Positions 6,100 through 30,400 of a DNA stretch of 64,000 nt are shown here, one piece after another. Position numbers and translations under genes: made by a program. The notes beneath the pieces were generated by a model. It made no database searches. It saw only the letters and a list, made by a program, of their open reading frames with translations, and was not told the origin of the DNA. Every line of letters starts with the position of its first letter. Position 1 is the stretch's first letter. The stretch comes from Methylorubrum extorquens. Lineage in GTDB: Bacteria > Pseudomonadota > Alphaproteobacteria > Rhizobiales > Beijerinckiaceae. The stretch covers positions 3,168,001-3,232,000 of the forward strand of contig NZ_JALJXF010000001.1 of NCBI RefSeq assembly GCF_024169925.1. The letters run 5' to 3'.

Positions 6100-6588
6100 C
6101 TAGCCCGGCGCCGCCGCGCGGGAAAGACCGCGGCCCGGCCTCTCCGCCGCCAGACGGCACAGGCTGCCGACGCCGAAGCCGTCCGGCCGGTCGCCGGGAT
6201 CACAGCGCACCACCGCGCCGCCGACGCGGCCGAGCTGCGGCGCGCCGGTGAGCAGGCTGTCCTGGTGCAGGCGCTGGGCAAGCGTCTCGACGGAATCGGC
6301 CGGTGCGCCGGCAAGCGTCCGGGCGGCGAGCCCGATCAGGACGAAGAACCCGCGCGGCGGCTCGCGGAGATCCGAGCGGAACGCGAGCCGCCGCGGCATC
6401 GCGCAATCGAGGCTCATCCGGTTGGCGTCGGCGGCGCGGAATACGACGGTGGCGCCGCTGCGTCCGGCTAGGGCGACGCCCGTTTCCCGGATCAACCGCA
6501 CGGTCAGCCCATCGCAGGAATCCGCTTGCGCGGCTGTGCCGAGGGCGAAAACAAGGGCGAGGCTGGCAAGGTGAGTGCGCAGGGTCAT
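6100..6588 (-). CDS. Secreted hypothetical protein
   Basis: From the ATG at 6588 this is a 162-residue protein with a clear signal peptide (MTLRTHLASLALVFALG, cleavage near AQA-D). ATGs further up at 6600 and 6618 are in frame, but 6618 would overlap the end of the ClC gene. The mature part has three cysteines and no motif I recognise. It sits 9 bases upstream of kdsA and 26 bases downstream of the ClC gene on the same strand, so co-transcription is plausible. Function unknown. Confidence 0.75.
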   Translation of the reverse strand: MTLRTHLASLALVFALGTAAQADSCDGLTVRLIRETGVALAGRSGATVVFRAADANRMSLDCAMPRRLAFRSDLREPPRGFFVLIGLAARTLAGAPADSVETLAQRLHQDSLLTGAPQLGRVGGAVVRCDPGDRPDGFGVGSLCRLAAERPGRGLSRAAAPG

Positions 6589-6614
6589 GCCGCGACCCAT
6601 AGCACGGGCGCGCC

Positions 6615-8552
6615 TCAAGCCGCTTCGCCGAGCATGGCGCGACGCTGCCGGTCCAGCTCTTCGCTGTAGCGTTTGAGCGTGTGGCTCTCGGTCAACAATC
6701 CGATGACCCGGCGGCTCTGCGAACCGTCAAGCACGGCGAGTTCTTCGCTCTCAGCCCCATCGAAGGCGGTCGCGGCCTGCTTGACGGTCATGTCGGCAAG
6801 TAGAAACGAACCGGGGTAGCGCACGACGTCGGCGAGGCGCGGCGTCTCGCCGTCATTCTCAGCCGCCCGCGCGTGCGCCTCCGGCACGAGCACGATACCG
6901 GCATAGCGATCGTGCTCGTCCACGATGACCACTCGCGACGGCGAGCCGAGGGGATGCGCGCGCAGGAATGTCGCCATCGGGGTGTCGAGGGGCACCGGCC
7001 GGATGTCCTTGCGCATCATCCGCCCGACCGTCAGGGAGCGCATCCAGCCGACATCGTGGGCACTGCGGATGCTTTCCCCGCGCAGGTGGAAGCGCCAAGT
7101 GGCGAAGGAGTAGCCGAAGGTCTTCCGCACCGTGAGCGACGAGGCGATCACCGAAGCGAGCACGAGCCCCGTCACGGGGAAGCTGCCCGTCATCTCCAGG
7201 GCGAGGAAGGTCATGGTGAGCGGGCCGCCGACGATGGCGACGGCGAAGGCGCTCATGCCGATCACGGCATAGCCGACCGGCGCGAGGCCGAACCCCTCGA
7301 AGCCGGGCCAGACCATCGGCGCGAGCCCGGCGAACAGGCGGCCCACCAGCGCGCCGAGAAACAATGATGCGAAGAACAGGCCGCCGCGGAAGCCTGACCC
7401 GATCGACATCGCGGAGGCCGCGGCCTTAGCGACGATGAGGCCGGCGAGCGCTCCGAGCCCCGCCGCCGCCTCGGGCGCAAGGGTGATGTGGAGCGCGCCA
7501 TGCCCGGCCGCGAGCACCTGAGGGGTCGTCGCGAGAGCCAGCCCGCCGACGCACAGCCCGCCGAGGACGGGCCGCAGCGGCGCGGGCAGGCGCGAGGCGC
7601 GAAAGCCCTGCTCCACCAGCGTCACGCCGCGCATCAGCAGCACCGCCAGGCCGGCGCAGACGAGGCCGAGGACGAGGCACGGCAGCGTGTCGCCCGCCAC
7701 CAAAGCCGTATCCTTGGCCAGAGCCAGGGATCCGACATCGACCAGGGCGACCTGAGGGGTAAGCGCCCGCGCCACGAGGCTTCCGCACAGGGCCGCGACG
7801 ACGACGGGGGCGAGCGTCGCAATGGTGTAGGTGCCGATGATGAGTTCGAACGCGTAGAACGCGCCGGTCAGGGGCGAGCCGAACGCGGCGGCGATCGCAG
7901 CGGCCGAGCCGCAGCCGACTAAGGTACGCAGGTCCGAACGCCGCATCTCGAAGGCGATGCCGAGCCGCGAGGCGATCGCCGCCGCGACCTGGGTGTACCC
8001 TGCCTCCAGCCCGACCGAGGCGCCGCAGCCGTTCGAGACCACGTTCTGCGCCGCCACGTCGAGGGAGCCGCGCAGCGACATCCGCCCCCCGTGCAGTGCG
8101 TTGGCCTCGATCGGATCGACCACTGCACGCTTGGCCTTGCCGCGCCCCCTCGTTGCGATCAGGAGCAGCAGGCCGAGGATCGCGCCGCCGAGCGCCGGAG
8201 CCAGGAACGGAACCCCCATCAGCCCCTCTGCCGGAAGGTCCGTCAGGCTGCTGAGGCGCTGGCCCGCGGGGAGCCGATAGAGGATTTCGCGCAGGAACTG
8301 GGTGGCGCCGCTCATGGCGACGACGACGAGCCCCCCGACGCATCCCGTCACGGCGGCGAGCCCCACGAGGGCGATCTCGTTCCCCCGCACCCAGGCTCGA
8401 AGCCGGACCGGAGCCTGGACGAGCGGGGCGGTGGTGGGCGGAGACGGGCTCATCGCACTCGCGGAGGCTGGGGCCGGATCGCATACCATGGCGGCCATGC
8501 GCCCGCGGTCTAACATCGGTGGATCGGTGGTGCGAACCGCGAAGAGGCGCAT
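6615..8552 (-). CDS. ClC-family chloride channel/antiporter with C-terminal CBS domains
   Basis: Up to 645 residues. About ten to twelve hydrophobic segments span residues 55-470, followed by a cytoplasmic tail with two CBS-like halves (about 505-560 and 575-630). The selectivity-filter motifs are divergent: the usual G-K/R-E-G-P appears as GLEAG, which keeps the gating glutamate, in the segment SNGCGASVGLEAGYTQ. This matches a ClC subgroup common in Rhizobiales. Transport of Cl- with or without proton exchange cannot be told from sequence. The first 33 residues look non-conserved, and internal ATGs at 8516, 8498 and 8453 are possible starts. Confidence 0.88.
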   Translation of the reverse strand: MRLFAVRTTDPPMLDRGRMAAMVCDPAPASASAMSPSPPTTAPLVQAPVRLRAWVRGNEIALVGLAAVTGCVGGLVVVAMSGATQFLREILYRLPAGQRLSSLTDLPAEGLMGVPFLAPALGGAILGLLLLIATRGRGKAKRAVVDPIEANALHGGRMSLRGSLDVAAQNVVSNGCGASVGLEAGYTQVAAAIASRLGIAFEMRRSDLRTLVGCGSAAAIAAAFGSPLTGAFYAFELIIGTYTIATLAPVVVAALCGSLVARALTPQVALVDVGSLALAKDTALVAGDTLPCLVLGLVCAGLAVLLMRGVTLVEQGFRASRLPAPLRPVLGGLCVGGLALATTPQVLAAGHGALHITLAPEAAAGLGALAGLIVAKAAASAMSIGSGFRGGLFFASLFLGALVGRLFAGLAPMVWPGFEGFGLAPVGYAVIGMSAFAVAIVGGPLTMTFLALEMTGSFPVTGLVLASVIASSLTVRKTFGYSFATWRFHLRGESIRSAHDVGWMRSLTVGRMMRKDIRPVPLDTPMATFLRAHPLGSPSRVVIVDEHDRYAGIVLVPEAHARAAENDGETPRLADVVRYPGSFLLADMTVKQAATAFDGAESEELAVLDGSQSRRVIGLLTESHTLKRYSEELDRQRRAMLGEAA

Positions 8553-8600
8553 TGAAGGCGCTTGAAATGCCGCGAGCCTCGGGATAAGTCCCCCTCACGT

Positions 8601-8677
8601 GCCGCCGTAGCTCAGTTGGTTAGAGCACTAGATTGTGGATCTAGGGGTCCCCCGTTCGAGCCGGGGCGGTGGTACCA
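8601..8677 (+). tRNA. tRNA-His (GTG)
   Basis: A 77-base cloverleaf with 7-bp acceptor stem, a 5-bp anticodon stem around loop TTGTGGA (anticodon GTG) and encoded CCA. The base before position 1 is T, so no G-1 is encoded. Position 72 is T opposite G1 and the discriminator is A73. This G-1-less, U72/A73 form is the one described for a group of alphaproteobacteria. Its 3' end is the left boundary of the accessory segment. Confidence 0.97.
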
Positions 8678-8683
8678 TACAAT

Positions 8684-9108
8684 TCAGTGACTTAGCCGGG
8701 GTCTGAGCCACCGCTCAGGCCCCGGTTTGCTGTTCATTTGGAAAGTATCGTTCCGCTTCCGAGTTCGGCTCGATGAGTCAGGCGTCCATCTTCGCTTCGT
8801 TGCGACGGTTCGCGAAGGCTGTATGTTCCCGGCATGGATGAGGTGGCGGAGGTTTCCGCGGCGGTTGTTCAGCCCGTCCCCATCGCGGTCGTCGATCTCT
8901 GCGCCGTCTACGACCCCCAGCACCTGCTGGTGCATGAAGATGAAGCCCCTACCCTCTCGGCGCGACCGTCGGCGCTTGACGTAGACGTGAGCGAGCGGGG
9001 CGCCCGGTGCGCGTACCAGCGGAAGCGCGACAGGGCGGCAAAGTCCTCCTCATCGACCTCGGCACAGATTCCCTTGTTGCGCTCAGCCTCTGCTGAGAGA
9101 GCGATGGG
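8684..9108 (-). pseudogene. HNH homing-type endonuclease, frameshifted
   Basis: Two adjacent minus-strand frames together encode a phage-type HNH endonuclease. The upstream frame (about 9108 to 8998) gives PIALSAEAER...VDEEDFAALSRFRWYAHRAP. The downstream frame (about 8998 to 8684) gives LAHVYVKRR...FIFMHQQVLG then DDRDGDGLNNRRGNLR, the His and Asn-Asn-Arg elements of the HNH site. Adding one C to the CCCC run at 8997-9000 joins them in frame, so a one-base deletion explains the break. The first HNH histidine position reads Asp-Asp rather than Asp-His. No good start codon is visible at the 5' end. Such genes are carried by phages and integrated elements. Confidence 0.8.
8696..8729 (+). terminator. 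Terminator downstream of tRNA-His
   Basis: A 13-bp stem with one G.T pair (8696-8708 with 8713-8725) and a 4-base loop is followed by a short T-rich tail. It lies on the accessory side of the tRNA's 3' end, so if the segment is an integrated element, the element supplied this terminator. Confidence 0.8.
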
Positions 9109-9130
9109 TCGGCGGGGAGCACAGGTTCGA

Positions 9131-9207
9131 CGTGGCGTAGAGCACCCCGGTAGCTCGCTGGGCTCACAACCTGAGAGTCGCCAATTCAAATCCGACAGCC
9201 GCAACCA
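9131..9207 (+). pseudogene. Decayed initiator tRNA-fMet copy
   Basis: Seventy-seven bases align position by position with bacterial initiator tRNA. Kept features are the unpaired C1 x A72 typical of tRNA-fMet, an intact GAGC/GCTC D stem, GGTA in the D loop, a TTCAAAT T loop and CCA. The anticodon reads CAC instead of CAT, the anticodon stem has one mismatch and two G.T pairs, and three of five T-stem pairs are broken. The T-stem damage argues strongly against function. It overlaps the upstream edge of the HNH pseudogene on the other strand. Confidence 0.75.
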
Positions 9208-9345
9208 GTTTCAGAATGGAAGCGCGGGCCGAATCCCTCTCCCCCCAGATCCAGACCGCCTTGAATTTTGTGATCTGCTACGCAGAGTCCGGGTGATCCA
9301 TGCAGCGCCGAGATTGATCTGCCGACCGGATGCGACCGATGGAAG

Positions 9346-9450
9346 CTAGAGCATCGTCCCGGATATCGGATCCAGGACAATGCTCTAGCCTCTTGTTTTT
9401 GCATCATTTTTTCCGAAATCTGGAAACCAACTTTCGGGATGATGCTCTAG
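9346..9450. repeat. Interspersed repeat, copy 1 (CTAGAGCATC family)
   Basis: A 105-bp element starting with CTAGAGCATCGT and ending with GATGATGCTCTAG, with internal inverted repeats. A close relative sits at 55919-56021, a part copy in reverse orientation at 55259-55314, and a decayed part at 58843-58878. The last bases supply the stop codon (TAG) of the neighbouring secreted protein gene. Confidence 0.85.
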
Positions 9451-9971
9451 GCGTAAGCATCGACGATTTTGCCGGCTCTATCTGCCTTGCACGTCAGTAC
9501 GCCTTGTCGCACCTCGTGGTTCTCGCCCTTCTTGAGACTTGCATAAATTAGGCGAAAACCGACTCGTGCGGCGGAACCGCCGTTCGTTCGCCTTTCAGGA
9601 CCAGCCGATGCAGCATCAATCCGTATGGCCCCCAGCTTCCTTGCTGATTTAGCGACCGTCGAACGACAAGAATCTACCAGCGAGTTTCGGCCCGGCGTTT
9701 TTGGCAGCGGTGCGAATACGTAGCGCAACGCAACTTTTGTGCCTCGCACTTTTCCATATTTCGGCAACCGGACCACTATTGTCCGCTCACCCTTCGCCCG
9801 CGAGGCGGCGGAAGAAAGGCTCAACTGCCACGGCATCGTCCATGTCGCGTATGTTTTCAGTCTCGGCGTTGAGTGACCCGGCCGAGCATTCGCTTCGCCG
9901 GCTCCGACCGCAAGCATGAAGCAGGCAGCCCAGGTGCTGTTGATGACGGTGGCCAAAATTTTCGCGTGCAT
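9447..9971 (-). CDS. Secreted hypothetical protein in the accessory segment
   Basis: From the ATG at 9971 this is a 174-residue protein with a signal peptide (MHAKILATVINSTWAACFML, cleavage near ANA-R). An ATG at 9989 is also in frame. The mature part is basic, with two cysteines and beta-rich stretches such as RVGFRLIYASLKKGE; I recognise no family. Its stop codon lies in the terminal CTAG of the repeat at 9346-9450, so the C-terminus may have been set by that insertion. Base composition is AT-richer than the core genes. Confidence 0.6.
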   Translation of the reverse strand: MHAKILATVINSTWAACFMLAVGAGEANARPGHSTPRLKTYATWTMPWQLSLSSAASRAKGERTIVVRLPKYGKVRGTKVALRYVFAPLPKTPGRNSLVDSCRSTVAKSARKLGAIRIDAASAGPERRTNGGSAARVGFRLIYASLKKGENHEVRQGVLTCKADRAGKIVDAYA

Positions 9972-10010
9972 TTGTCGGATCCTATACATTTTGCAGGATG
10001 ATCTGTCCGT

Positions 10011-11144
10011 CTAGTGCGGCGTTGGTCGTAGGAGGGATGGCAACGTGAAGTTTCTTAGTCGATCCGCTCTGGCGAGATGCGGAAGTGCTGGTCTGGCTTC
10101 GCGCCGTAATTTGCTGAAACCAATTCCTGTGTGCGATCGAGTGCGAGGCCGTAGCGGTTTCGATCTTTCGCTGGTTCTCGCCGCCTCGCTAGTTGGTTCG
10201 CCCTGCGTCGGACGGCCCGCCTCGCGATAGGAGCCGGCATCAGACGAGGCTCCCGTTCGGACACCTCCGGGACTTCGATCGATTGGTGGGCCCTCTTCGC
10301 TCGCAGCGTTGTGCGCCGTAACCTCGACCGAAAGGTTTGCGTCCGTGATGAGCGGCTTCGGGGGAGCCAGGATCCGCACGGTCGGCCCCTGCGGTAGGGA
10401 TATGCGAGCATGGCGCGGGACTGACACGGCGGGCGAAATGCCTGGGCTGCTCACGATCGCCGCGACTTCAATAGCATCGCCGTTCAATGTTGATGCCGAA
10501 CTAGGCGAGGCATCCGTTTCAGCAAATTTCTCTGGGGCAAGGACGGTGACGGTCTCGGTAAGCGGGATGTCCAGCAATTTGCGCAACCCCGCTGAAGGCG
10601 TGGCGGGTGCTGGGCTCATCGGGGAATGAGTCGCCTGACGATCTGTCGTGTCGAGGGTATCTTGTTGCCGTCTAAACTCGATGAGAGCAGTGATCCCGCA
10701 CACCAGAGTTAAAGCGGCTACGCCGCACTTCGCGTATGGCCATGCCGTGCGCCGATCGTTAGATGCAAAACTTTCCTGACTGAGCGTCGGTGACTGACTT
10801 ACTTCTCCCGTATCCGCACTTCCGCGGCAGATTTCACGATTGGCTTCAGTCGAAAGCTCTGCCCCATCGGCGTGTCGATTCTCTGCCGGCTTCGCTTGCG
10901 TCGACTCTGTGCGGCGAGCGTCGCGCTCCTTGTCCAGTTGGTTGAGAAGCTGTGTGACCCAGAGACTATCACCCGATGTTCCATTTTCGTGATTCGTAAA
11001 ACCTGATCTAGAGTAGTGCGGCCGGAAATTTCCCACCCTGGTTGCGCCATCTGTGGCCTCGGAGTTCGTATCTTGTTGATCGACGTCCACACGCCGGGCA
11101 CTTAAACGGTGCCGTGTCGGATTTTCTTTCCGATCACCGGTCAT
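10011..11144 (-). CDS. Hypothetical single-span membrane protein
   Basis: A 377-residue protein with a hydrophilic, Ser/Thr/Glu/Arg-rich N-terminal half, one membrane helix at about residues 140-158 (CGVAALTLVCGITALIEF) and a long Pro/Ser/Ala-rich C-terminal part that ends in a basic Arg/Pro-rich tail. No signal peptide; the topology would be N-in, C-out. The low-complexity C-terminus recalls SPOR-type or cell-envelope linker proteins, but no SPOR repeat is visible. Codon use is less GC-biased than in the core genes. It lies 39 bases upstream of the secreted protein gene on the same strand. Function unknown. Confidence 0.6.
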   Translation of the reverse strand: MTGDRKENPTRHRLSARRVDVDQQDTNSEATDGATRVGNFRPHYSRSGFTNHENGTSGDSLWVTQLLNQLDKERDARRTESTQAKPAENRHADGAELSTEANREICRGSADTGEVSQSPTLSQESFASNDRRTAWPYAKCGVAALTLVCGITALIEFRRQQDTLDTTDRQATHSPMSPAPATPSAGLRKLLDIPLTETVTVLAPEKFAETDASPSSASTLNGDAIEVAAIVSSPGISPAVSVPRHARISLPQGPTVRILAPPKPLITDANLSVEVTAHNAASEEGPPIDRSPGGVRTGASSDAGSYREAGRPTQGEPTSEAARTSERSKPLRPRTRSHTGIGFSKLRREARPALPHLARADRLRNFTLPSLLRPTPH

Positions 11145-11413
11145 CGTCCTACTCCAAGAGTGTGCAGAGCAGTTGCTGCTGTAGGATCATCGGCCGGAGC
11201 CTGCAGAAGCTATAAGATCATCTCACGCCGGGTCAGATAGCTTGCATGGATGGGCTTGCCCTGCATTTACTCTTAAGTGGTATGAGGTCTGGGGATAGAG
11301 TCCGGAGATGATCGATTTCGTTGAAAACTCGTTCTCGGCCGAAATTAGGGCCTGTCGTCGTCTGAACGAATTGCGAAGTCTGGCGGTTTCTCGTTTTCAA
11401 GTGAGGAGACGTG

Positions 11414-11488
11414 ATGCTGTCAGACGCGCAGTGGATTGAGTTGGAGCCGTTGACTGAAGCCTGTCGCCCGAAGGCCAAGCACCGCCCA
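11414..11488 (+). mobile_element. IS5-family transposase remnant (N-terminus only)
   Basis: About 25 residues, MLSDAQWIELEPLTEACRPK and on, match the start of IS5-group (IS427-like) transposases. A purine-rich ribosome-binding site (GAGGAGAC) lies just upstream. The frame then runs into unrelated sequence, so the element is truncated and inactive. Confidence 0.75.
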
Positions 11489-11490
11489 AC

Positions 11491-11892
11491 ATGCCGAATC
11501 GTTGCTGGATCGCGTCCGGCGGCGCCTGCCTCGTGCTTTTCGCCCTCTACTTCGGCGCGGTCGCCGGGGCCCGGCGCTGGTCCTGCGAGGTGCTACCACC
11601 ATCGGCACCCCGCGCGCCGCCCGGCTCGAGCTTCTCCATGGCCCGCACGATCGATTATGAGGACGAGTGCGAGTTGAACTACGAGCGCCTGCTTCTGTCG
11701 GACGTGCCAGGACCGAGGGGCGCCTTCCGCAGGGTGAGCCTCGAAGACGTCTATTTCCGTAGGCCGCCGTGGGAGTTGGACCGGAAGCCCTGGTACAGCC
11801 AAGGGCACATCCCCGACGACTTCCGATGCGGCCCTGCGCGGATCGTCGATAGCTCCTCGGCTGCCCGCAGCTCGCTCCAGCGGTTGTTCTAG
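11491..11892 (+). CDS. Hypothetical protein with N-terminal membrane segment
   Basis: A 133-residue reading frame with a hydrophobic segment at about 9-26 (GACLVLFALYFGAVAGA) and a charged body (TIDYEDECELNYERLLLSDV, RRPPWELDRKPWYSQ). Third codon positions are GC-rich through most of it, as in real genes here. No clear ribosome-binding site precedes the ATG, which sits at the break point of the IS5 remnant, so the true start may have been lost or moved. No family recognised. Confidence 0.45.
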   Translation: MPNRCWIASGGACLVLFALYFGAVAGARRWSCEVLPPSAPRAPPGSSFSMARTIDYEDECELNYERLLLSDVPGPRGAFRRVSLEDVYFRRPPWELDRKPWYSQGHIPDDFRCGPARIVDSSSAARSSLQRLF

Positions 11893-12223
11893 CGGCAGCG
11901 GCGGGGCTACGCTTAACGGTCGACTGCTCGGGATCGACGCCGCTGCCATAGCCATTTTCGCCACTCGTCCGGACATCAACCTCGCAACCGAACGGGCCCG
12001 GCCCGGTGTCGGGAAATGGTGGCGGACGGAGGTGCTTGGGATCGGCGGGCCGCCTCCAGGGTGAGGTGTGGGGGAGCTGCGTCAATATGGACGAAGGTTT
12101 CAACTCCGCCCGCCCCAATGCACGCGAATAACTAGCGCACAATTCGTTATCGCCGACTGACGTCTACGGGCGTCGACGACTGAGAGAGGTTTGTGCTCTT
12201 GCCTTCATCGTAGGATGTAAACA
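11893..12223. other. Gene-free stretch in the accessory segment
   Basis: About 330 bases with no frame I would call and no strong hairpin. The reading frames that cross it are short and without coding bias. Confidence 0.5.
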
Positions 12224-12469
12224 GTGCCTCTCTATTACTTCGATGTGCACGATGGCACTCACATAACAGATAAAGTCGGCGTGGAACTTGAAGACTTTGA
12301 GGCGGCGAAGTTGCATGCAATGCACGTAGCCGCGATCCATTCGGTAAATCCGAAAATGATCGGAAGCAATGGTGGGGCAATGGTTATCGTCATTCGTCGG
12401 CCCGATAATACAGTGATGGCAAGTGTACGAATGTCGTTCAATATAAATATCGAGAAAAGAGAAACATAA
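12224..12469 (+). CDS. DUF6894 family protein (copy 1)
   Basis: An 81-residue protein starting at GTG 12224. The opening PLYYFDVHDGTHITDKVGVEL and the following EDFEAAKLHAMHVAAIH are the signature of the DUF6894 family, small proteins found in many paralogous copies in Methylobacterium and other Rhizobiales. Function unknown. A second member is at 15292. Codon use is markedly AT-richer than in the core genes, which fits transfer. Confidence 0.8.
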   Translation: MPLYYFDVHDGTHITDKVGVELEDFEAAKLHAMHVAAIHSVNPKMIGSNGGAMVIVIRRPDNTVMASVRMSFNINIEKRET

Positions 12470-12616
12470 AGCACGAGCGATCCGGTAGGCGATCAAAAGT
12501 GAGGTTTTGGATTCGGCAATTATATATTTAATGCTTTGTCGGTCCGAACTTACCTGATCAGGCGTTACCCCACCGGGAGGTTGCTCAGTCCCACTCTGGA
12601 ATGTGGGATTGACCAA

Positions 12617-12859
12617 ATGGCTGCGAACCCCGAATGGCCGGCAACGGGCCAATGGATGAGTATCCGCGTTGTGCTGCGCTCGGAGCGCCCGCGAGCCTTC
12701 TGCAACCATTGTTTGTCGGACATGCTCACGATTCTTTACGAAGACGTGGTTCGAGAGACGAGCCGTCTCATGGAAGGGGACACCTACCAGCGTCGAAAAG
12801 GTCGCTGCTTTCGATGCCGAAGCACCAAGCGATACGTCATTCGCGATTTGACGCCCTGA
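12617..12859 (+). CDS. Small zinc-ribbon hypothetical protein
   Basis: About 80 residues from ATG 12617 (ATG 12656 or 12536 possible). Two Cys-x2-Cys pairs, CNHC and CFRC, lie about 35 residues apart and the latter is followed by a basic stretch (RSTKRYVIRD). This is a zinc-ribbon arrangement, likely structural or nucleic-acid binding. Similar short CxxC...CxxC orphans occur in Methylobacterium; I do not recognise a named family. Confidence 0.55.
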   Translation: MAANPEWPATGQWMSIRVVLRSERPRAFCNHCLSDMLTILYEDVVRETSRLMEGDTYQRRKGRCFRCRSTKRYVIRDLTP

Positions 12860-12868
12860 CACCGGGCC

Positions 12869-13054
12869 TTGCGATCGCAGGGGCTCGGGCGACGCGTCAT
12901 CACGACATGCTTCGCCGTGCCGGAGGAATTCGAGCCGGGCGGCGGCGAGCACTACGCGGCGCCGAAATACGCCTGTAACCCGCTGCAGCGATACTACCGG
13001 CCGATCACACGGGCGCAGAACGTGGTCAAAGTTCAGATTGAACTAAAGCCGTGA
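12869..13054 (+). CDS. Possible small hypothetical protein
   Basis: A 61-residue frame following the zinc-ribbon gene after 9 bases. Its second half (EEFEPGGGEHYAAPKYACNP, QRYYRPITRAQNVVKVQIEL) has GC-rich third positions, which favours coding. The start is uncertain and no family is recognised. Confidence 0.3.
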   Translation: MRSQGLGRRVITTCFAVPEEFEPGGGEHYAAPKYACNPLQRYYRPITRAQNVVKVQIELKP

Positions 13055-13154
13055 GTGGCACATCGAAACAGGATGTGCGATCGACCGCTATGCAACATGC
13101 AATTGTCTGTGCAGTCTCGTTCCATAGGCGGCCCCTCGCCGCTGGAGGCGCAGC

Positions 13155-13403
13155 ATGGTCAGCACCAATCCGACAGCGAATGTGGAAAGCGATCCCCCGA
13201 CTGATCGGTGTGAGCGCGCCCTCACTGAGGCGATCGGCGCTCTCGAAGCCATCCGCGATGAAGGGCCCACGGCCGATCCGGCCTATCCGACCCACGGAGG
13301 GATTGAGGCGCACGATGCATGGGGTTTCGACTCGGCCTCGCACGAGCGCGCGGAGACCGCTCGGGGCACCCTGGCGGACGTAGAGGCGATCATGAAGGAG
13401 TGA
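13155..13403 (+). CDS. Small acidic hypothetical protein
   Basis: An 82-residue acidic protein with a good ribosome-binding site (GGAGG, seven bases before the ATG). It is largely helical by composition (RALTEAIGALEAIRDEG, HERAETARGTLADVEAIMKE). No family recognised. Terminator hairpins follow about 60-120 bases after its stop. Confidence 0.55.
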   Translation: MVSTNPTANVESDPPTDRCERALTEAIGALEAIRDEGPTADPAYPTHGGIEAHDAWGFDSASHERAETARGTLADVEAIMKE

Positions 13404-13494
13404 TCGGCGTGGGGGCGCTGATCCGGACTATCCACCCGCCGCAGCTCGTCTGCCTCATGCCCGCCCTCCAGCGGGCTTCGTAAGACCCAACTTA

Positions 13495-13524
13495 CCCCGC
13501 CGGCGCCCGCCGTGCGGGGTTTTT
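13495..13524 (+). terminator. Rho-independent terminator, copy 1 of a repeated type
   Basis: CCCCGC (13495-13500) pairs with GCGGGG (13514-13519), then five T. A smaller hairpin with GCCCGC/GCGGGC arms lies just upstream at about 13460-13476. Serves the small acidic protein gene. Confidence 0.8.
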
Positions 13525-13638
13525 GTTGGCAGGCGTTGCGCGTCCAGCGCAGGTCAGGCCCGCCGGACTGAACGCCGCTGACGCCCGTCTACCCTACGTC
13601 CGCCCATCAGCGGACCCTTCCATCTCGATACCCACCTT

Positions 13639-13670
13639 GCCCCGCCCGGCTCGCTGCGGCGGGGCTTTTT
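13639..13670 (+). terminator. Rho-independent terminator, copy 2 of a repeated type
   Basis: GCCCCGCC (13639-13646) pairs with GGCGGGGC (13658-13665), then five T. No plus-strand gene is visible directly upstream, so it may be left over from a lost gene. It is preceded by CCTT, as is the copy at 15014. Confidence 0.75.
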
Positions 13671-13782
13671 ATGCGCCTACCCAAGCTGGGGCGCTACGCA
13701 GCACGTGTAGGGCCAAGCCAGCGAGAATGGCGCCAACACCGATCAGTACAAGAATGTCGCCGAGTGACGTAGGTTGTTTCAT
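13669..13782 (-). CDS. Tiny single-span membrane protein
   Basis: A 37-residue frame from ATG 13782 to TAA at 13669. It begins MKQPTSLGD, has one hydrophobic helix (ILVLIGVGAILAGLALHVL) and ends in APAWVGA. The pattern is that of phage or toxin-like small membrane peptides, but no family can be named at this length. Upstream bases include a weak GAACGG. Its stop abuts the T-run of the hairpin on the other strand. Confidence 0.4.
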   Translation of the reverse strand: MKQPTSLGDILVLIGVGAILAGLALHVLRSAPAWVGA

Positions 13783-13862
13783 GGCCGTTCATTGCAGCTG
13801 GACGAGCCTGCAATCCATCAGAGAGTGGACCTCTGACGGGTTTTTGATCCGGCGCTGTCATA

Positions 13863-13894
13863 GCTCCGCCCGGCTTAGCTGCGGCAGGGTTTTT
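13863..13894 (+). terminator. Decayed terminator, copy 3 of a repeated type
   Basis: The sequence closely resembles the hairpin at 13639 (GCTCCGCCCGG...GCGGCAGGG, then five T) but with mismatches in the stem. It appears to be a degenerate copy. Confidence 0.55.
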
Positions 13895-13974
13895 GGGTGT
13901 GCCAAAGACTATGGAGGTGATGCAGGCGCCGCGCATGGAGCGGACCGCGCTGAAACGTGCCTCACCAGCGCACA

Positions 13975-14199
13975 TCACTCCTGCTGGCTTTGTTCCGACT
14001 TGGTCTGGCTCAGCGCGATGAGGGCAGCGAACGCGCCGCCGGCTGATCCAAGAACGCCTGCCAGCGCGACGGCAATGGGAGGGAGTGGCGCAAGCTGCTG
14101 CGGCCACAACAGCCAGAGAGTGCCAAGGGCGACGAGCCCACAGCATGCGCCGCTCAGCAGTGCGAAGACGACGCGTCGTCTGAGAAGTTGTTTGTTCAT
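13975..14199 (-). CDS. Small two-helix membrane protein
   Basis: A 74-residue protein with a basic N-terminus (MNKQLLRRR), two hydrophobic helices (about 11-31 and 39-63) joined by a Pro-rich turn, and a polar tail (QTKSEQSQQE). Size and layout resemble phage holins, but no sequence motif supports that, and no lysis genes are nearby. Function unknown. Confidence 0.5.
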   Translation of the reverse strand: MNKQLLRRRVVFALLSGACCGLVALGTLWLLWPQQLAPLPPIAVALAGVLGSAGGAFAALIALSQTKSEQSQQE

Positions 14200-14253
14200 C
14201 CGTTGTATCTAGGGCGCGCTGAGATTTAATCGCGTCCCCTGCGCCGTCGTCGC

Positions 14254-14428
14254 GACCCGGCCGACATCGGCTATGACAGCCACGATCAGCTTAGAGATCA
14301 CCTCCAACTCTTCGTGGATGCCTACAACCACGCCCGCCGCCTCAAGACGCTGCCACGAACACGTCTGCCAAGCCTGGACCAAAGAAACCCAACGCTTCAG
14401 GGTTGATCCGTCACACCACATCCCGGGA
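14254..14428 (+). mobile_element. IS481-like transposase remnant (C-terminus only)
   Basis: One frame gives DQLRDHLQLFVDAYNHARRL, typical of the integrase-core C-terminus of IS481-group transposases. A second frame, about 20 bases on, gives CQAWTKETQRFRVDPSHHIP, the usual C-terminal end of the same family. A short deletion between them breaks the frame. The rest of the element is missing. Confidence 0.75.
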
Positions 14429-14466
14429 TCGTACAGTTGGCCCGTGGTCCCGCTCCCTCCACTCCG

Positions 14467-14760
14467 CTATCGGCCCACAGAGCGCCGCGTGTCCGCGCAC
14501 ACGGCGGCCAGCCCTTCCTTCACGACGCGAGAGCGGAACGCTGTGTCGGCTTCCCTGGTGGTCTGGTCGAAATCCGGCTCCGACAGAGCCGTGGCGCAGG
14601 ACTGGACGGCTCCCGCTGCCGCGCTCGCCCCGAACTCCTCCCGGCACTCGATTTCGGCGAAGGTGAGCGTCGAGACGGAGCGGACGGTGTCGTAGCAGTC
14701 GCTTTGCGCCTTCGCAGATACGCATGAAGCCAGCATGATTGCCGTGACCAATCGCAGCAC
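14467..14760 (-). CDS. Secreted cysteine-containing hypothetical protein
   Basis: From GTG 14760, which has a GGAGG ribosome-binding site eight bases upstream, this is a 97-residue protein with a signal peptide (to about AKAQ-S). The mature part has four cysteines (SDCYDT, IECREE, QSCATA, AVCADT), enough for two disulfides in the periplasm. No family recognised. An in-frame ATG at 14805 would spoil the signal peptide. Confidence 0.6.
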   Translation of the reverse strand: MLRLVTAIMLASCVSAKAQSDCYDTVRSVSTLTFAEIECREEFGASAAAGAVQSCATALSEPDFDQTTREADTAFRSRVVKEGLAAVCADTRRSVGR

Positions 14761-15291
14761 CGTTCGCCCCTCCGCTCGCCAGCGGCCATTTCGGCTCCGG
14801 CGCATCTTGACGCTACTGCCGCCCGCCTGTCGCGGGAAGGGGGCGGCTGCACGCTGTGCCAGGAATGGGCCACCTTGTCCTTCGCAGGACTTTGAGGTGC
14901 GGGAGGCATCGAAAATAATCGTTGCTGCTCATGGGGTGCAGAGATCCCGCACCTAGGCAACCGGCGTTGACCTCGTTGGTTTATTTTACTTCATTTCTGA
15001 ACACGCCTACCTTGCCCCGCCCGGTCCAGCCGCAGCGGGGCTTTTCGTTTCTGGCGCTGCTGGCTCGGCTCCTCCGAGGCTCGCCCCGCCGCATCGTCAC
15101 CGATCATTTGGATCACCCTCTCAAACTCGGCGAGCGATGTCTTCGTGTGCGATGGTAGCTTCGGATGTCATGACTCGTTTTTGTTGTAGCTAACGCCCGG
15201 CATACGTTTAAGGTGATCCGGTCGCGGTCCGGATTATGGCTTTCCGCGGTTGAGAGACAGATGTGCTCCCGCCCAGCGAGCGGAGAGTCAC
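14761..15291. other. Gene-free stretch in the accessory segment
   Basis: About 530 bases with no convincing gene. It holds one terminator-like hairpin (15014-15045) of the repeated type but no plus-strand gene upstream for it to serve, which suggests gene loss. Confidence 0.5.
15014..15045 (+). terminator. Rho-independent terminator, copy 4 of a repeated type
   Basis: GCCCCGC (15014-15020) pairs with GCGGGGC (15035-15041), then four T. The flank CTACCTT and the stem match the copy at 13639. Confidence 0.7.
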
Positions 15292-15531
15292 ATGCCGCGC
15301 TTTTTCTTCGACGTCCATGACGGTCACCACGAGCGCGACGACGAGGGTACCCTTTGTGACAACGTGCAGGCCGCGGCGCTGGAGGCCAAGATCCTGCTGC
15401 CCGCGATCGCAAGACACGAGGTGCCGAAGGATGGTGAGCGCCAAACCATTACGGTGCTGGTGACCGACGAGGACGGGCATCCCGTCTACTCTGCCGCTCT
15501 TTGCTTTGTGGGTACCTGGCTGCTTCGCTGA
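15292..15531 (+). CDS. DUF6894 family protein (copy 2)
   Basis: A 79-residue protein starting MPRFFFDVHDGHHERDDEG, the DUF6894 signature, with the central VQAAALEAKILLPAIARHEV helix and a C-terminal strand pair (ITVLVTDEDGHPVYSA). The ATG at 15292 has a GGAG box seven bases upstream; an ATG at 15250 is less likely. Function unknown. It is the last gene before the right boundary repeat. Confidence 0.85.
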   Translation: MPRFFFDVHDGHHERDDEGTLCDNVQAAALEAKILLPAIARHEVPKDGERQTITVLVTDEDGHPVYSAALCFVGTWLLR

Positions 15532-15704
15532 CGCCGGTCGCGGCGCATTCCCGCCCGAGCGCCTCGTAAATCGCCCGCACTGTCGTCTCGTCCAAGCCGA
15601 GGCCCTATGCGAACCGGAGCGGGCTTCGCAACTCGGCGGCGGATCGTTCGGTGGTCTAGGTCGCGCTCATATCCAATCCTGCTCATGGAGCGCTGCAGGG
15701 ATCC

Positions 15705-15734
15705 CCCCCGTTCGCGCCGGGGCGGTGGTACCAT
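15705..15734 (+). repeat. Right-end copy of the tRNA-His 3' end (putative att site)
   Basis: Thirty bases match positions 8649-8678 (the T-arm, acceptor strand and CCA of tRNA-His plus one base) with a single A-to-C difference. A weaker match extends a few bases left, with two extra C in the C-run. There is no 5' half of a tRNA here. This is what a tyrosine recombinase leaves when an element enters a tRNA gene. The two copies enclose about 7 kb. Confidence 0.8.
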
Positions 15735-15752
15735 CGAACTTCGCATGGTCTG

Positions 15753-15785
15753 GAAGGGGGCGGCGCCGAGCCAGCCCCTTCTTCG
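15753..15785 (+). terminator. Probable original terminator of tRNA-His
   Basis: GAAGGGG (15753-15759) pairs with CCCCTTC (15775-15781), followed by a T-rich tail. It lies 19 bases beyond the right-end tRNA fragment. If the segment is an insertion, this was the tRNA's own terminator before integration. Confidence 0.5.
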
Positions 15786-15894
15786 TTTGGCTCGACCCAG
15801 GGCTGGCGCCTGTGAGCCGGTCGGACCCGCTTGCCGGTCAAGCCGGGCTTCCCCTGCTGCTACGAGCCAGCGAGCAGGGGGCAGCGCCATGGCA

Positions 15895-25639: not shown

Positions 25640-26128
25640 ATGAAGCGCGAAGACCTCACCGAGAAGCTTCTCGACATCAAGCGCGAGAAGGGCTGGACCT
25701 GGAAGTACATTCAGGAGGAGATCGGCGGCATCTCACCGATCCTCATCACCGCCGCCTGCATGGGCCAGATGAAGCTGCCCAAGGCGCAGGCCGCCAAGGC
25801 CGCCAAGCTGTTTGGGCTGAGCCAGGCCGAGGAGCGGATGCTGAACGAGGCCCCCTATCGCGGCTCGATCCCGCAGATGCCGCCGACCGACCCGCTGGTC
25901 TACCGCTTCTACGAGTTGGTGATGGTCTATGGCACGACCTGGAAGGAACTGATCCAGGAGGAGTTCGGCGACGGCATCATGTCGGCGATCGACTTCAACA
26001 TGACGATGGAGCGCGAGCCCAACAACAAGGGCGACCGGGTGAAGATGAATCTTTCCGGCAAGTTCCTGCCCTACAAATACTACGGCAACGACGAAGGCGT
26101 GCCGGAATACGGCTTCAAGGAGCCGTAG
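25640..26128 (+). CDS. cynS: Cyanate hydratase (cyanase)
   Basis: Cyanase converts cyanate and bicarbonate to CO2 and carbamate, which decays to ammonia, giving both detoxification and a nitrogen source. The 162-residue protein has the N-terminal helical, HTH-like domain (about 1-80) and the C-terminal catalytic domain with YRFYELVMVYGTTWKELIQE (Arg, Glu) and SAIDF (Ser); those Arg/Glu/Ser residues form the decameric active site in E. coli CynS. The ATG at 25640 has GGGAGA upstream. Its sigma-54 promoter suggests nitrogen- or cyanate-responsive control. Confidence 0.97.
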   Translation: MKREDLTEKLLDIKREKGWTWKYIQEEIGGISPILITAACMGQMKLPKAQAAKAAKLFGLSQAEERMLNEAPYRGSIPQMPPTDPLVYRFYELVMVYGTTWKELIQEEFGDGIMSAIDFNMTMEREPNNKGDRVKMNLSGKFLPYKYYGNDEGVPEYGFKEP

Positions 26129-26142
26129 GAGCCCGCCGGTTG

Positions 26143-26178
26143 AGAGAAGCCCGGTGCGACGGCGCCGGTCTTCTCTTC
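26143..26178 (+). terminator. Terminator after cynS
   Basis: AGAGAAGCCCGG (26143-26154) pairs with CCGGTCTTCTCT (26165-26176) with one mismatch, followed by a short T stretch. Fifteen bases after the cynS stop; the cyanase gene is therefore probably monocistronic. Confidence 0.7.
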
Positions 26179-26227
26179 GTGTCAAAGGGTTTTCGTCCGG
26201 ATCGATATCGGCTTCGCCTGATCCGGT

Positions 26228-26497
26228 TCAGCAGCCGACACAGATATCCTTCATGAGGAAACTGTCCTTGAACTGAGGTTCAGGCTTCTGCGCGGCCTCG
26301 CCGCTTGTCGGCGCGCCCAAGACCTGCGGGCGAGGGATGACTCTTCCTGTCGGCGCGACATGCGGGGCCGTGATCGTGGTCTCCGGGCCACCGCCCGTCC
26401 CGGTCTGCGCCGGATGATTCATCGCGTTTGCGACCGTGGGCGCGACCAGGCAGATCGCGCCGACGACCGCGATTCTCAAAGATGTCGTTCCATTCAC
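26228..26497 (-). CDS. Small secreted hypothetical protein
   Basis: From GTG 26497 (GGGAG site upstream) this is an 89-residue protein with a signal peptide (SLRIAVVGAICLVAPTVANA) and a Pro/Thr/Gly-rich mature part ending in KDICVGC. The terminal Cys-Val-Gly-Cys could bind metal or form a disulfide. It converges with cynS. No family recognised. Confidence 0.6.
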   Translation of the reverse strand: MNGTTSLRIAVVGAICLVAPTVANAMNHPAQTGTGGGPETTITAPHVAPTGRVIPRPQVLGAPTSGEAAQKPEPQFKDSFLMKDICVGC

Positions 26498-26689
26498 GCT
26501 TCGTCTCCCTGTTCGATTGCGGATCCTTCTCATATCTTGCGGATTCTTCTTATGTCTGGGCGTCTATTCCAAATATGCGCCGCCTCTCACCAAATCTGAC
26601 CGGTCTTTGACTGCAATCGATCCGTCACGATTGGATCTATTTTAAACGAACTGTCGCGATCCCTCCCTCCACGGCGCATCGCGATGCGT

Positions 26690-27016
26690 TCAGCGTGTTC
26701 CGGGGAGATGACAGATCAGCGGGTTCGCTCGACGGCCGCCGCTTTGATAGCTCTTTGCGTGGCCGATCGAGCCGGTCATGTCCTGCGTCGGGTTTCCGCC
26801 GGGACGTTTCACCACGATATCGCAGTACATCCGATTGGGATCGCCGGGGCCTTGTAGGTCCATCGTGCGCCGAGCCAGCGCCAACGTCGGCAGCAGGATA
26901 GGCGCGACGGCAGCAAGCAGACCCAGTGCGCGGCTTAATCCACGAAACAACAAATTTCTCCTGTCTTGCAGAGCGCGGCCCAAACAAGAGGCAAATTGAT
27001 TAAATATAAATCTCAT
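26690..27016 (-). CDS. Small secreted hypothetical protein
   Basis: From ATG 27016, 108 residues (ATG 27058 also in frame). A basic, hydrophobic N-terminal part (GLSRALGLLAAVAPILLPTLALA) acts as signal or membrane anchor, followed by a short mature region (RTMDLQGPGDPNRMYCDIVV) with two cysteines. No family recognised. Upstream sequence is AT-rich, as expected for a promoter. Confidence 0.5.
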   Translation of the reverse strand: MRFIFNQFASCLGRALQDRRNLLFRGLSRALGLLAAVAPILLPTLALARRTMDLQGPGDPNRMYCDIVVKRPGGNPTQDMTGSIGHAKSYQSGGRRANPLICHLPGTR

Positions 27017-27413
27017 AATGGAAGCCAAGTGCGTAAGAACACATCCGAGATAATGCAACAGCTTTGCACAAAGTCGAAATTATAATCAGGAATAAATCTA
27101 CTGTTTAAACGTGTTAGGCTGGTAGCAACCCGAAATTTACGGGGCAATACGCTCGCTAGCATCCCGATATGACTTGGTCCCTGACCCGCTCCGAGAAAAC
27201 GCTTCGGATCACATCCGGCGATTTACGGTCGGCCGCGAACGGCTATGCACCGCTGCTCACGGGGTTGAGCGGATCGTACGTCGATCCAAGCGGGTCATCG
27301 CCGGGCGAAACGGATGGCAAGGCCAGCGGCCGTCTTCTTCGGACAGGTCGTCCTGCTGCACTATGACCGCGCCGAGCGCGAGGGCGGCGACGGGCTCGGT
27401 GACTGTTAGCGCG
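27017..27413. other. Gene-free stretch upstream of the small secreted gene and behind tamB
   Basis: About 400 bases. The first 120 are clearly AT-rich and probably carry the promoter of the secreted-protein gene. The rest has one 65-codon plus-strand frame without coding bias. I see no RNA gene or repeat. Confidence 0.5.
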
Positions 27414-30400
27414 TCACCACTCCCACTCCGCGCCGACGCCGACCGAGGTGCGGCCATCACTGCCGGCCTCGCCGTTCAGCTTGATCCGCCGCGTCACGTC
27501 GTAGTTGATCGTCGCGGCGGTGTCGGCGGGCTTGGCGCCGGCCTTCACGCCGACGCTGATGCGGTCGTTGATGTAGCGCGAGGCGCCGACCGCCGGGCCG
27601 CCGCTCGCGCCCGTCGAGACATCGAGGCTGTCGAGGCCGAGCCCCTTGCGGGCCGCCTCGAACACGTCGGGGCCCCCTGCCCCGCCGGAAAGCTGCGCCA
27701 CGGCCTGAGCCAATTGCAGCGCCTGGAACGCCGAGAGCCCGGCCGCCGCCTTCTTGAACAGGATGCGCGAGAGGATCTCGTCCTGTGGCAGGCTCGGATC
27801 TGAGGAAAGCGCGAAGACGGGCTGCGCGGCGGGGCCGGTGACCGCGACGCGGGCGGTGACGTCGGCGGCCTTGGTCTCGGCAGCGAAGTCGAGGTCGGGC
27901 TGGGCGATGTCGCCGGCGAAGAACACCCGGCCCCGGGTGAAATCGAGGCGCTGTCCGCCGAGGCTGAACACGCCGCGGCGCAGCGAGAAGTCGCCGTTGG
28001 CCTGCGGGTCGCGCGAGGAGCCGGTGACGTGCAGTTCGCCGCCGAGCTCCGCGTCGATGCCGCGTCCGCGCACGAAGATGCGGCTCGGCGCACTCACGAT
28101 CACGTCCAGACCGGCATCGAAGGGCGGGGTTGCCTTCTTCCGGCGGCCGGCTGCGTCGATCTGCGCCTTGCGCTCGGCCCGCTTGGTGAGGCGCTCGCGC
28201 ACCTCCGGGGTCACGTTCACCCGTCGGATGCCCGGAAGCGGCTGCACCGTTGCGGGCAGGCGGTCGGGCACCGAGACATCGATGGACACGACATCGATCC
28301 GGCCCTTGATGACCGGTTTGCGGGCGAGCGGCCCCGAGAGGGCAAGGTTGAGGCTTGAGACGGCCGTCATCAGCGGGCTCGACACCAGTTCGGCCCGGTC
28401 GGCGGTGATGCGAAGCGTGCCGGGAAAGCCGGAGGCCGGTTCGACGGCGACGCGCCCGTCCACGGAGAGGCGCCCGCCATTGCGGGTCGCCGCGGTCAGC
28501 CGCTCGATGACGATCGTGTCGCCCCGGCCCGTCACCCGACCCTGGATGTCGGTGATGCGGATGCCGTTGATCGGATCGGTGAGGCTGCCCCCCGAAAGCG
28601 TCGCCGAACCTTCCACCTTCGGCGCCGCGACCGTGCCGGCCACGCCCGCATCGAGCCCGATACGGCCGGCGACCCGCTGCCCGCTCCCGCTCAGCATCGA
28701 GTTGGCGAGCGCCGCGTCGAGGTTGCCGCGGGCGCGGAGATTCAACCAGCCGCCGGCTTCGACGGGTACTGTGCCCGTTACGGTCACGTCGGCGCCGCGC
28801 CCGGCCGAGACCCGCCCGTCGATGCTGGCCTCGCCGTCATTGAGCCGACCGTTCGCCCGCGCGGTGATCGGCGGCAGGCCGGCCTTGCGGGTCTCCGGCG
28901 TCACGAGGCCGGCGACGGTGAGGGCATAGCGCCCTTCCGGCCGCGCGGCGGTCCCGTGCAGGTCCGCCTCGCCCTCCAGCGTGCCGGAGAGCGCGAGGCT
29001 CGGGCTCGCAATCCGCGCGAGCGACAGCGGCAGGGCACGGATGCCGAGCTTGAGGTCGAGATCGGACCCGGCCCGCCCCTGAACGCTGATCCGGCCGGAG
29101 CCCGCGGCCACGACCAGATTCTCGATCAGCGCGGAGCCACCGTCGAGCGTGATCGCGGCGGGGCCAGCCAGCGCCAGACGGTCGCCGCCGCGCTGCGCCG
29201 AGAACCGGGCAATCTCGATCCGCGTGCGCTCGGCCGGGATCAGCCGCGCGGCGCCATCAAGCGCGAAGCCGCGGGCCTGGGCGGTGAGGGTGATGTCACT
29301 CGCCGCCGCGGTGCCGTTGGCGGTGAGCCGCACCGTATCGACGCTCTGGCCCGCCGCCACGAGCCGCCCGATATCGGCATGGCCGTCGATGACCGGATGC
29401 GCTCGAAGATCGCGGCCGGTGAGATCCGCGTCGAGCTTGGCGAGGCCGAACGTGTCGTAGCGCAGGCTGGAACCCGTGGCACGGATCGTCGCGTCCTGAC
29501 GCCCGCCCGCGCGGGTGAGGGTCACCGCCGCATCGAGGCTGCCGCCCATGGGTGCAAGCGCGAGCGGTGACAGGTCGCCGAGATCCCCGGCGCGGACCGT
29601 CAGAGCTCCTTCGGCGAGGAGGCTGTCGGCATTGAGGACCGCTTGTCCGTCCGCGGCGACGGAGCCGAGAGCGAAGGCAAGCCGGTCGAGGGCGTAGTCG
29701 CTCCGGCTCGGCCGGGCGATGTGGGCCTCGGCCCGCAACGGCTTGCCGGCGATATCGCCGGTCATGCGCAGCGTGCCGTCCAGGGCGTCGCGGAGGTCGT
29801 TCAGCGCCGCATCGAGGCGCAGATCCCGAATCGGACGCCCGTTGGCGCTCACCTCCGGTGCGCGGAGCGCGGCGGTGACGGCCGGCTTGAGCAGGGAGCC
29901 GGTCAGCCGCGCATCGGCGCTCGCCGGCCCGGACAGGCGCTCGTCGAAGGCGGAGAGGTTCTTGAGATCGACGCGGGCGGCGACATCGGCGGTCTTGGCG
30001 TTCGCCTGCCCCTGGAGGGTGGCGACGAGCCCCGCGCCCTCGAAGCGCAGGCGCTCGAAACCGTAGCCGTCATAGGTCTGCGAGACGCGTCCCGTCAGTG
30101 CCGGAGTGCGGCCGACGAGCCGATCGGCGGTCGCCTCGCCCAGCACGAGACCGCCGCCCCGCAGGTCGAGGTCGGCGGAAAGAGCCTTGCGGGCGGGATC
30201 ACCGCTCAAGACCGCCTTGGCATCGAGACGACCGGCGAGGGTCCGGCCGACGATGCCCGAGAAAGCGCCGACATCGGACAAAGCTGCCTCGAGTGTGCCG
30301 GCCAGCGTGTTCTGCCCGATCCGTCCGGCATAGGCGGCGCGGGCCGTCTCCGACTCGACGGTCAGGGTGGTGACATCCAATACGCCGTCCGAGCCGGCGG

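Follow-up and report, generated by a model that had tools for sequence, protein, structure and literature searches.

A 7-kb relic of an integrated element beside the tRNA-His gene of Methylorubrum extorquens

A direct repeat of the tRNA-His 3' end

A stretch of 64,000 nucleotides of Methylorubrum extorquens DNA (GCF_024169925.1, contig NZ_JALJXF010000001.1, positions 3,168,001 to 3,232,000 of the forward strand; hereafter the window) holds a complete tRNA-His gene followed, about 7 kb downstream, by a second copy of its 3' end, and the DNA between the two is the element considered here. All coordinates are window positions, position 1 being the first letter. The tRNA-His gene (anticodon GTG) occupies 8601–8677 of the plus strand, CCA included (ARAGORN; Rfam score 62.4 bits). 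Its 3' part makes up the putative left attachment site, attL, the core of which is a 30-bp sequence at 8649–8678 consisting of the last 29 bases of the gene plus one. The right copy, taken as the core of attR, lies at 15705–15734 in the same plus-strand orientation and differs at one of the 30 bases. In a scan of both strands of the 64 kb that tolerated up to eight mismatches, these were the only two places to match the 30-mer; under a base-composition model, matches to a 30-mer with one mismatch or none are expected by chance about 1.7e-10 times per 64 kb, both strands counted. A preliminary description of this DNA had reported just such a direct 30-base repeat with a single mismatch, and both this and its statement that the right copy lacks the 5' half of the tRNA are borne out: the upstream sides of the 8649 and 15705 copies gave no alignment scoring above zero. 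The interior is also AT-richer, as had been said, with a guanine-plus-cytosine (GC) content of 0.605 over 8679–15704 vs 0.682 in the remainder of the window; none of the 172 same-length stretches taken elsewhere at a step of 250 (GC 0.654–0.707) is as low. Another GC-poor stretch of the window (0.57–0.60) lies at 26001–27500.

The two ends of the element differ in their folding. By sequence comparison and folding, the left end (8679–8740, plus strand) opens with some ten bases similar to the tRNA's native flank, followed by the motif ACTTAGC and by a strong hairpin (z -5.63). Beyond the right copy, 15735–15790 (plus strand) aligns with the stretch downstream of tRNA-His in relatives and is thus the native flank with its original hairpin. 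The preliminary description had placed a second terminator there; the flank is indeed the native one of the relatives, but its stem is unremarkable, being no better than shuffled sequences (z -0.69; 41 of 200 shuffles fold as well), and neither it nor the left-end stem is among the eight terminator-like sites listed in the window by a consensus scan that requires a T run.

The empty site in related genomes

Flanks of the element were searched initially in 41 genomes (the source genome, 24 others of the genus and 16 of the order), and later, each flank separately, in all 111 genomes of the genus. The nearest of the 111 are G086 and G089, with flanks 92% identical to those of the window and a single tRNA-His each. 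In both, position 8678 is followed directly by 15735, and a query joined across this junction is returned as one alignment at 92% identity, of 2,260 and 2,272 columns, respectively; no match to the DNA of the element was found within either locus. Three genomes of the initial search (G017, G008, and G015), 83–87% identical to the left flank and having one tRNA-His each, gave the same picture: the left flank (6500–8688) adjoins the right (from 15705), and the joined query crosses the junction in a single 2,265-column alignment in G017 and in a crossing piece in G008 and G015. An empty site joining 8677 to about 15735 was what the preliminary description had proposed to look for, and it is present in these five genomes, to the base in G086 and G089. 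Among the matches listed, nine genomes besides these two (G017, G043, G068, G094, G069, G072, G091, G008, and G015) have the flanks 10–590 bases apart, and across all 11 of 11 genomes with neighbouring flanks (right flank identity 81% or more) the gap is 0–590 bases, with one tRNA-His 3' end in each. Because relatives have an empty site, the 7,056 bp of 8679–15734 were added in the lineage of the window.

No integrase remains in this interval. A search of the genome for PF00589 gave 17 matches at E<=10, none of them inside it, and tblastn with eight integrases gave no better than E 0.20 among 46 rows, with no integrase remnant in the interval. The preliminary description had found no integrase and had advised a search for remnants, and the outcome upholds it. 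With no integrase on board, the element is therefore a relic.

Other elements at tRNA-His

The tRNA-His 3' ends were counted in the 111 genomes of the genus through a matched 26-mer, with up to two mismatches allowed. One hundred genomes have one, ten have two (the source genome included), and one has none; a second 3' end is thus found in nine of the 110 other genomes. In eight of these nine, the open frame just inside the partial copy, of 418–454 codons and beginning 99–175 bases from the 26-mer, encodes an integrase with the domains Arm-DNA-bind_3, Phage_int_M, and Phage_integrase. In G060, the ninth, the contig starts only 366 bases ahead of the partial copy, and no more than these could be read. 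The integrases at four of these loci (L072, L073, L074, and L075) seem to fall into three or more sequence types.

Both copies lie on one contig, in one orientation and 17–28 kb apart, in four of the nine (G051, G077, G020, and G088), and only these were counted as clear one-contig elements. In G021, G111, and G117, the second copy was considered as belonging to the same locus as the complete tRNA; this was rejected, the flank of the complete tRNA looking native and the partial copy being on another contig. Tape-measure, small-terminase-like, and helicase genes are carried by the G088 element, and tape-measure, large-terminase, and primase genes by that of G051. The repeats of all nine elements are exact, begin in the anticodon arm, and measure 49–53 bp (49–51 bp in the four one-contig elements). 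The tRNA-His gene is thus a repeated site for phages and islands in this genus, a second 3' end being present in 10 of the 111 genomes.

The motif ACTTAGC recurs near the left junction in five of the nine other two-copy genomes and in none of 22 single-copy flanks, and it is absent from the loci of G086 and G089. As a suggestive point, it speaks for integration here.

Genes and remnants within the element

A clue to the nature of the element is a decayed tRNA of initiator type at 9131–9207 (plus strand), the preliminary description having also noted a decayed tRNA in the element; by sequence comparison it is closest to tRNA-Met genes borne by prophages. Read by eye, it has kept its C1:A72 ends, which we take as the mark of an initiator-type tRNA, but its T stem is broken and its anticodon reads CAC in place of CAT. 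Together with its 3' flank, it is 82% identical over 174 bp to a tRNA-Met of G015 that stands beside helicase and Toprim genes, and close copies in G126 and G043 adjoin phage replication, terminase, or portal genes; in these three phage-like regions, the relatives of this tRNA are tRNA-Met (CAT). Most other genus matches listed for this query cover the tRNA alone, many of them at contig ends, and are presumably fMet genes following rRNA operons. The element is matched by four phage records, from three phages (phiLM21 twice, there annotated as tRNA-Met), and always at this tRNA only; the remaining matches listed are to insertion sequence (IS) pieces, the tRNA, or short repeats. No plasmid record covers 80% of the element. 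A tRNA-Met inside the G088 element was considered as a link to that of the window and was rejected, being by eye a different tRNA.

On the minus strand, at 8684–9204, lies a putative HNH endonuclease remnant in two frames (8684–8935 and 8908–9204), which had been noted beforehand. The identification is a weak one, as the first piece matches Pfam HNH_3 at E 0.02, below the cut-off, and the second matches nothing. A copy of a dispersed repeat follows at 9307–9455 (minus strand; Rfam BASRCI27, 43.4 bits, below the gathering score of 59.8), with matches in many genus genomes among those listed.

Ten open frames of the element were tested against Pfam and PHROG, and ratios of nonsynonymous to synonymous substitution (dN/dS) were computed pairwise by the Nei-Gojobori method; such values largely record what happened ahead of the insertion and are no proof of selection after it. 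Two of the genes form a pair on the minus strand. The first, at 9447–9989, is open and encodes 180 amino acids, predicted by eye to be exported, with no Pfam or PHROG match; 12 proteins were found for it, and dN/dS is 0.12 against M. podarium. Its structural model has a mean predicted local distance difference test (pLDDT) score of 73.7, with residues 1–46 below 50, and no PDB match at E<=0.001; a ketosteroid isomerase fold was not counted, the best Foldseek match having E 0.039 and a template modelling (TM) score of about 0.25. Its neighbour at 10011–11144, also open, encodes 377 amino acids with one hydrophobic segment (by eye), has a dN/dS of 0.43, and has two relatives besides itself among 7999 candidates scored. 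The pair is rare among the sequences searched: in genome contigs of close relatives (own species left out), it occurs at one locus, L071 in M. podarium (NZ_BPRD01000510.1), with 72% DNA identity; that contig carries tRNA-Cys and tRNA-Asn and no tRNA-His.

The two transposase remnants of the preliminary description are both real. An IS5-family fragment lies at 11346–11490 (plus strand), of which 11346–11487 is 89.5% identical to an annotated IS5 transposase, and an IS481-family fragment lies at about 14271–14436 (plus strand), matching a record annotated as IS481 and comprising 165 bases vs 179 in many genus copies among the matches listed.

The other open frames are small. On the plus strand, a 133-amino-acid frame (11491–11892) shares 48% identity with an open frame of G060, has a dN/dS of 0.54, and is followed by a gene for a small DUF6894 protein (12224–12469; PF21834, E 7e-13; dN/dS saturated) and by a 107-amino-acid frame (12536–12859) with a weak match to PHROG 2834, of function unknown, at E 0.0073, the sole PHROG match among the ten frames. 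A second DUF6894 gene, also open, lies near the right end (15250–15531; Pfam E 8.6e-20), with dN/dS of 0.11 and 0.13 when 15292–15531 is compared. Two frames are on the minus strand, one of 74 amino acids (13975–14199; 81% identical to G017, dN/dS 0.33) and one of 112 (14467–14805; 91% identical to G073, dN/dS 0.17). Between them and the first plus-strand group, the segment 13057–13524 (plus strand), with an 82-amino-acid gene at 13155–13403 (dN/dS 0.28 and 0.46 against two relatives), has two further copies in this genome at 87–88% identity. These copies (L108 and L109) are at C1:987200-987673 and 998343-998816, and the 985–1000 kb region has other short dispersed segments in common with the element, as well as an integrase at 991,934; judged by sequence, the region is possibly a related mosaic. 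A tRNA gene was sought at 972–1012 kb, without success.

The words "orphan" and "decayed", applied earlier to this content, hold in part. Several of the small genes have relatives elsewhere in the genus and are not orphans; what served mobility is in ruins, as are the insertion sequences, whereas a number of cargo genes are still open and are conserved.

Discussion

The direct repeat and the exact empty sites agree, and the element is a cleanly demonstrated integration relic. That it arose by site-specific integration at tRNA-His and afterwards lost its mobility is, in our judgement, very likely. The preliminary description had read the locus as an old tRNA-His-anchored element that is now immobile, a reading supported by the exact empty sites and the missing integrase; we refine it to a probable prophage relic. 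In the history we propose, an integrative element that was probably a temperate phage would have been inserted at the tRNA-His 3' end by a tyrosine integrase after this lineage had split from its nearest relatives among the genomes searched. It would have brought its own copy of the tRNA 3' end, and because of this tRNA-His stayed whole; the displaced native 3' end would now be the right boundary at 15705–15734. Later, in an order that is likewise only proposed, the integrase would have disappeared along with whatever phage structural genes there were, the phage tRNA and the HNH-like gene would have decayed, and IS5 and IS481 copies would have entered and become fragments, leaving the 7,056-bp relic with some cargo genes still open.

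Two readings dispense with an insertion in this lineage, and both fare badly. Partial tRNA copies can arise by chance or by segmental duplication, here in an AT-rich intergenic zone with no integration at all, but in the nearest relatives the DNA runs unbroken through this very junction, and what lies outside the right copy aligns with their native flank; we give this reading practically no credence. An ancestral element lost from the relatives by excision between the repeats would leave the same empty site; this would, however, demand repeated exact losses, given that the element is absent from all 11 relatives with neighbouring flanks and that 100 of the 111 genomes have one tRNA-His 3' end, and it seems to us very improbable.

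What kind of element was inserted is less certain. Phage ancestry is, on the sequence evidence, the better-supported reading, and we hold it to be probable. Several observations weigh against the history proposed above. No capsid, terminase, portal, or tail gene is present in any of the ten open frames, with no match to a phage family of Pfam. The repeat of the window is only 30 bp and starts in the T arm, whereas those of the other nine elements are 49–53 bp; an extension into the anticodon arm was sought, and none scored above zero. Because the repeat is so short and without trace of extension, the lost integrase may have been of another class than those of the nine elements. At the cut-offs used, moreover, no DNA or protein was found in common between the window element and the other tRNA-His elements, and the ACTTAGC motif was noticed first and counted only afterwards, so it is suggestive at best. 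Finally, in the single-copy genome G018, about 2.2 kb past tRNA-His, 80 bases match the DUF6894 gene, and some small part of the gene content can thus occur there without the repeat.

The missing structural genes, the short repeat, and a cargo of small genes and a two-gene module would suit a non-phage integrative island, such as a mobilisable element or a satellite, that entered at tRNA-His and later gained a phage tRNA and IS copies. Set against this are the phage-like tRNA and, weakly, the HNH piece, together with the phage-like character of at least two other elements at tRNA-His; nor did the ten frames contain a Pfam family for conjugation or mobilisation (relaxase or type IV secretion), although dedicated profiles were not run. 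We regard a non-phage nature as possible but distinctly the weaker option, and this estimate concerns that nature only, the integration step being common to both readings.

A probable prophage relic may also have been kept for its cargo. The pair at 9447–11144 could then be an undescribed functional module of Methylobacteriaceae that is borne by mobile elements and outlives its carrier, a tentative idea that we hold to be less likely than not. It is similarly speculative that the 180-amino-acid protein, predicted to be exported and from a family with no Pfam or PHROG match, has the 377-amino-acid protein as a membrane-anchored partner. The surviving pair nevertheless gives a modest lead into a protein family so far without a name.

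Comparison with known islands

The element is of an ordinary and well-known kind, and firmly established as such. Among its closest counterparts are the elements of G051, G088, G020, and G077, which use the same tRNA in the same orientation, three of the four with ACTTAGC close to the left junction; they differ from it in having 17–28 kb between the copies, in having an integrase by the partial copy and a repeat of 49–51 bp, and in having no genes found in common with it. A literature search gave no paper joining Methylobacterium, genomic island, and tRNA-His, which does not prove that none exists. In the account of the Methylobacterium extorquens AM1 and DM4 chromosomes, many chromosomal islands border tRNA genes, some being classed as phage-related and one as a "gene decay region" (PMC2680597), as in the relic described here. 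The tRNA-targeted islands collected by Islander are likewise formed of a complete tRNA gene and a direct 3' fragment around foreign DNA; 1,836 of 3,919 have the T-stem-region (J) type of site, to which the window element would belong, the anticodon (A) type being set apart (PMC4383910). Islander demands an internal integrase, and the window element, having none, would go unlisted by its rules; a recurrent tRNA-His site should help to annotate islands that such integrase-requiring finders skip.

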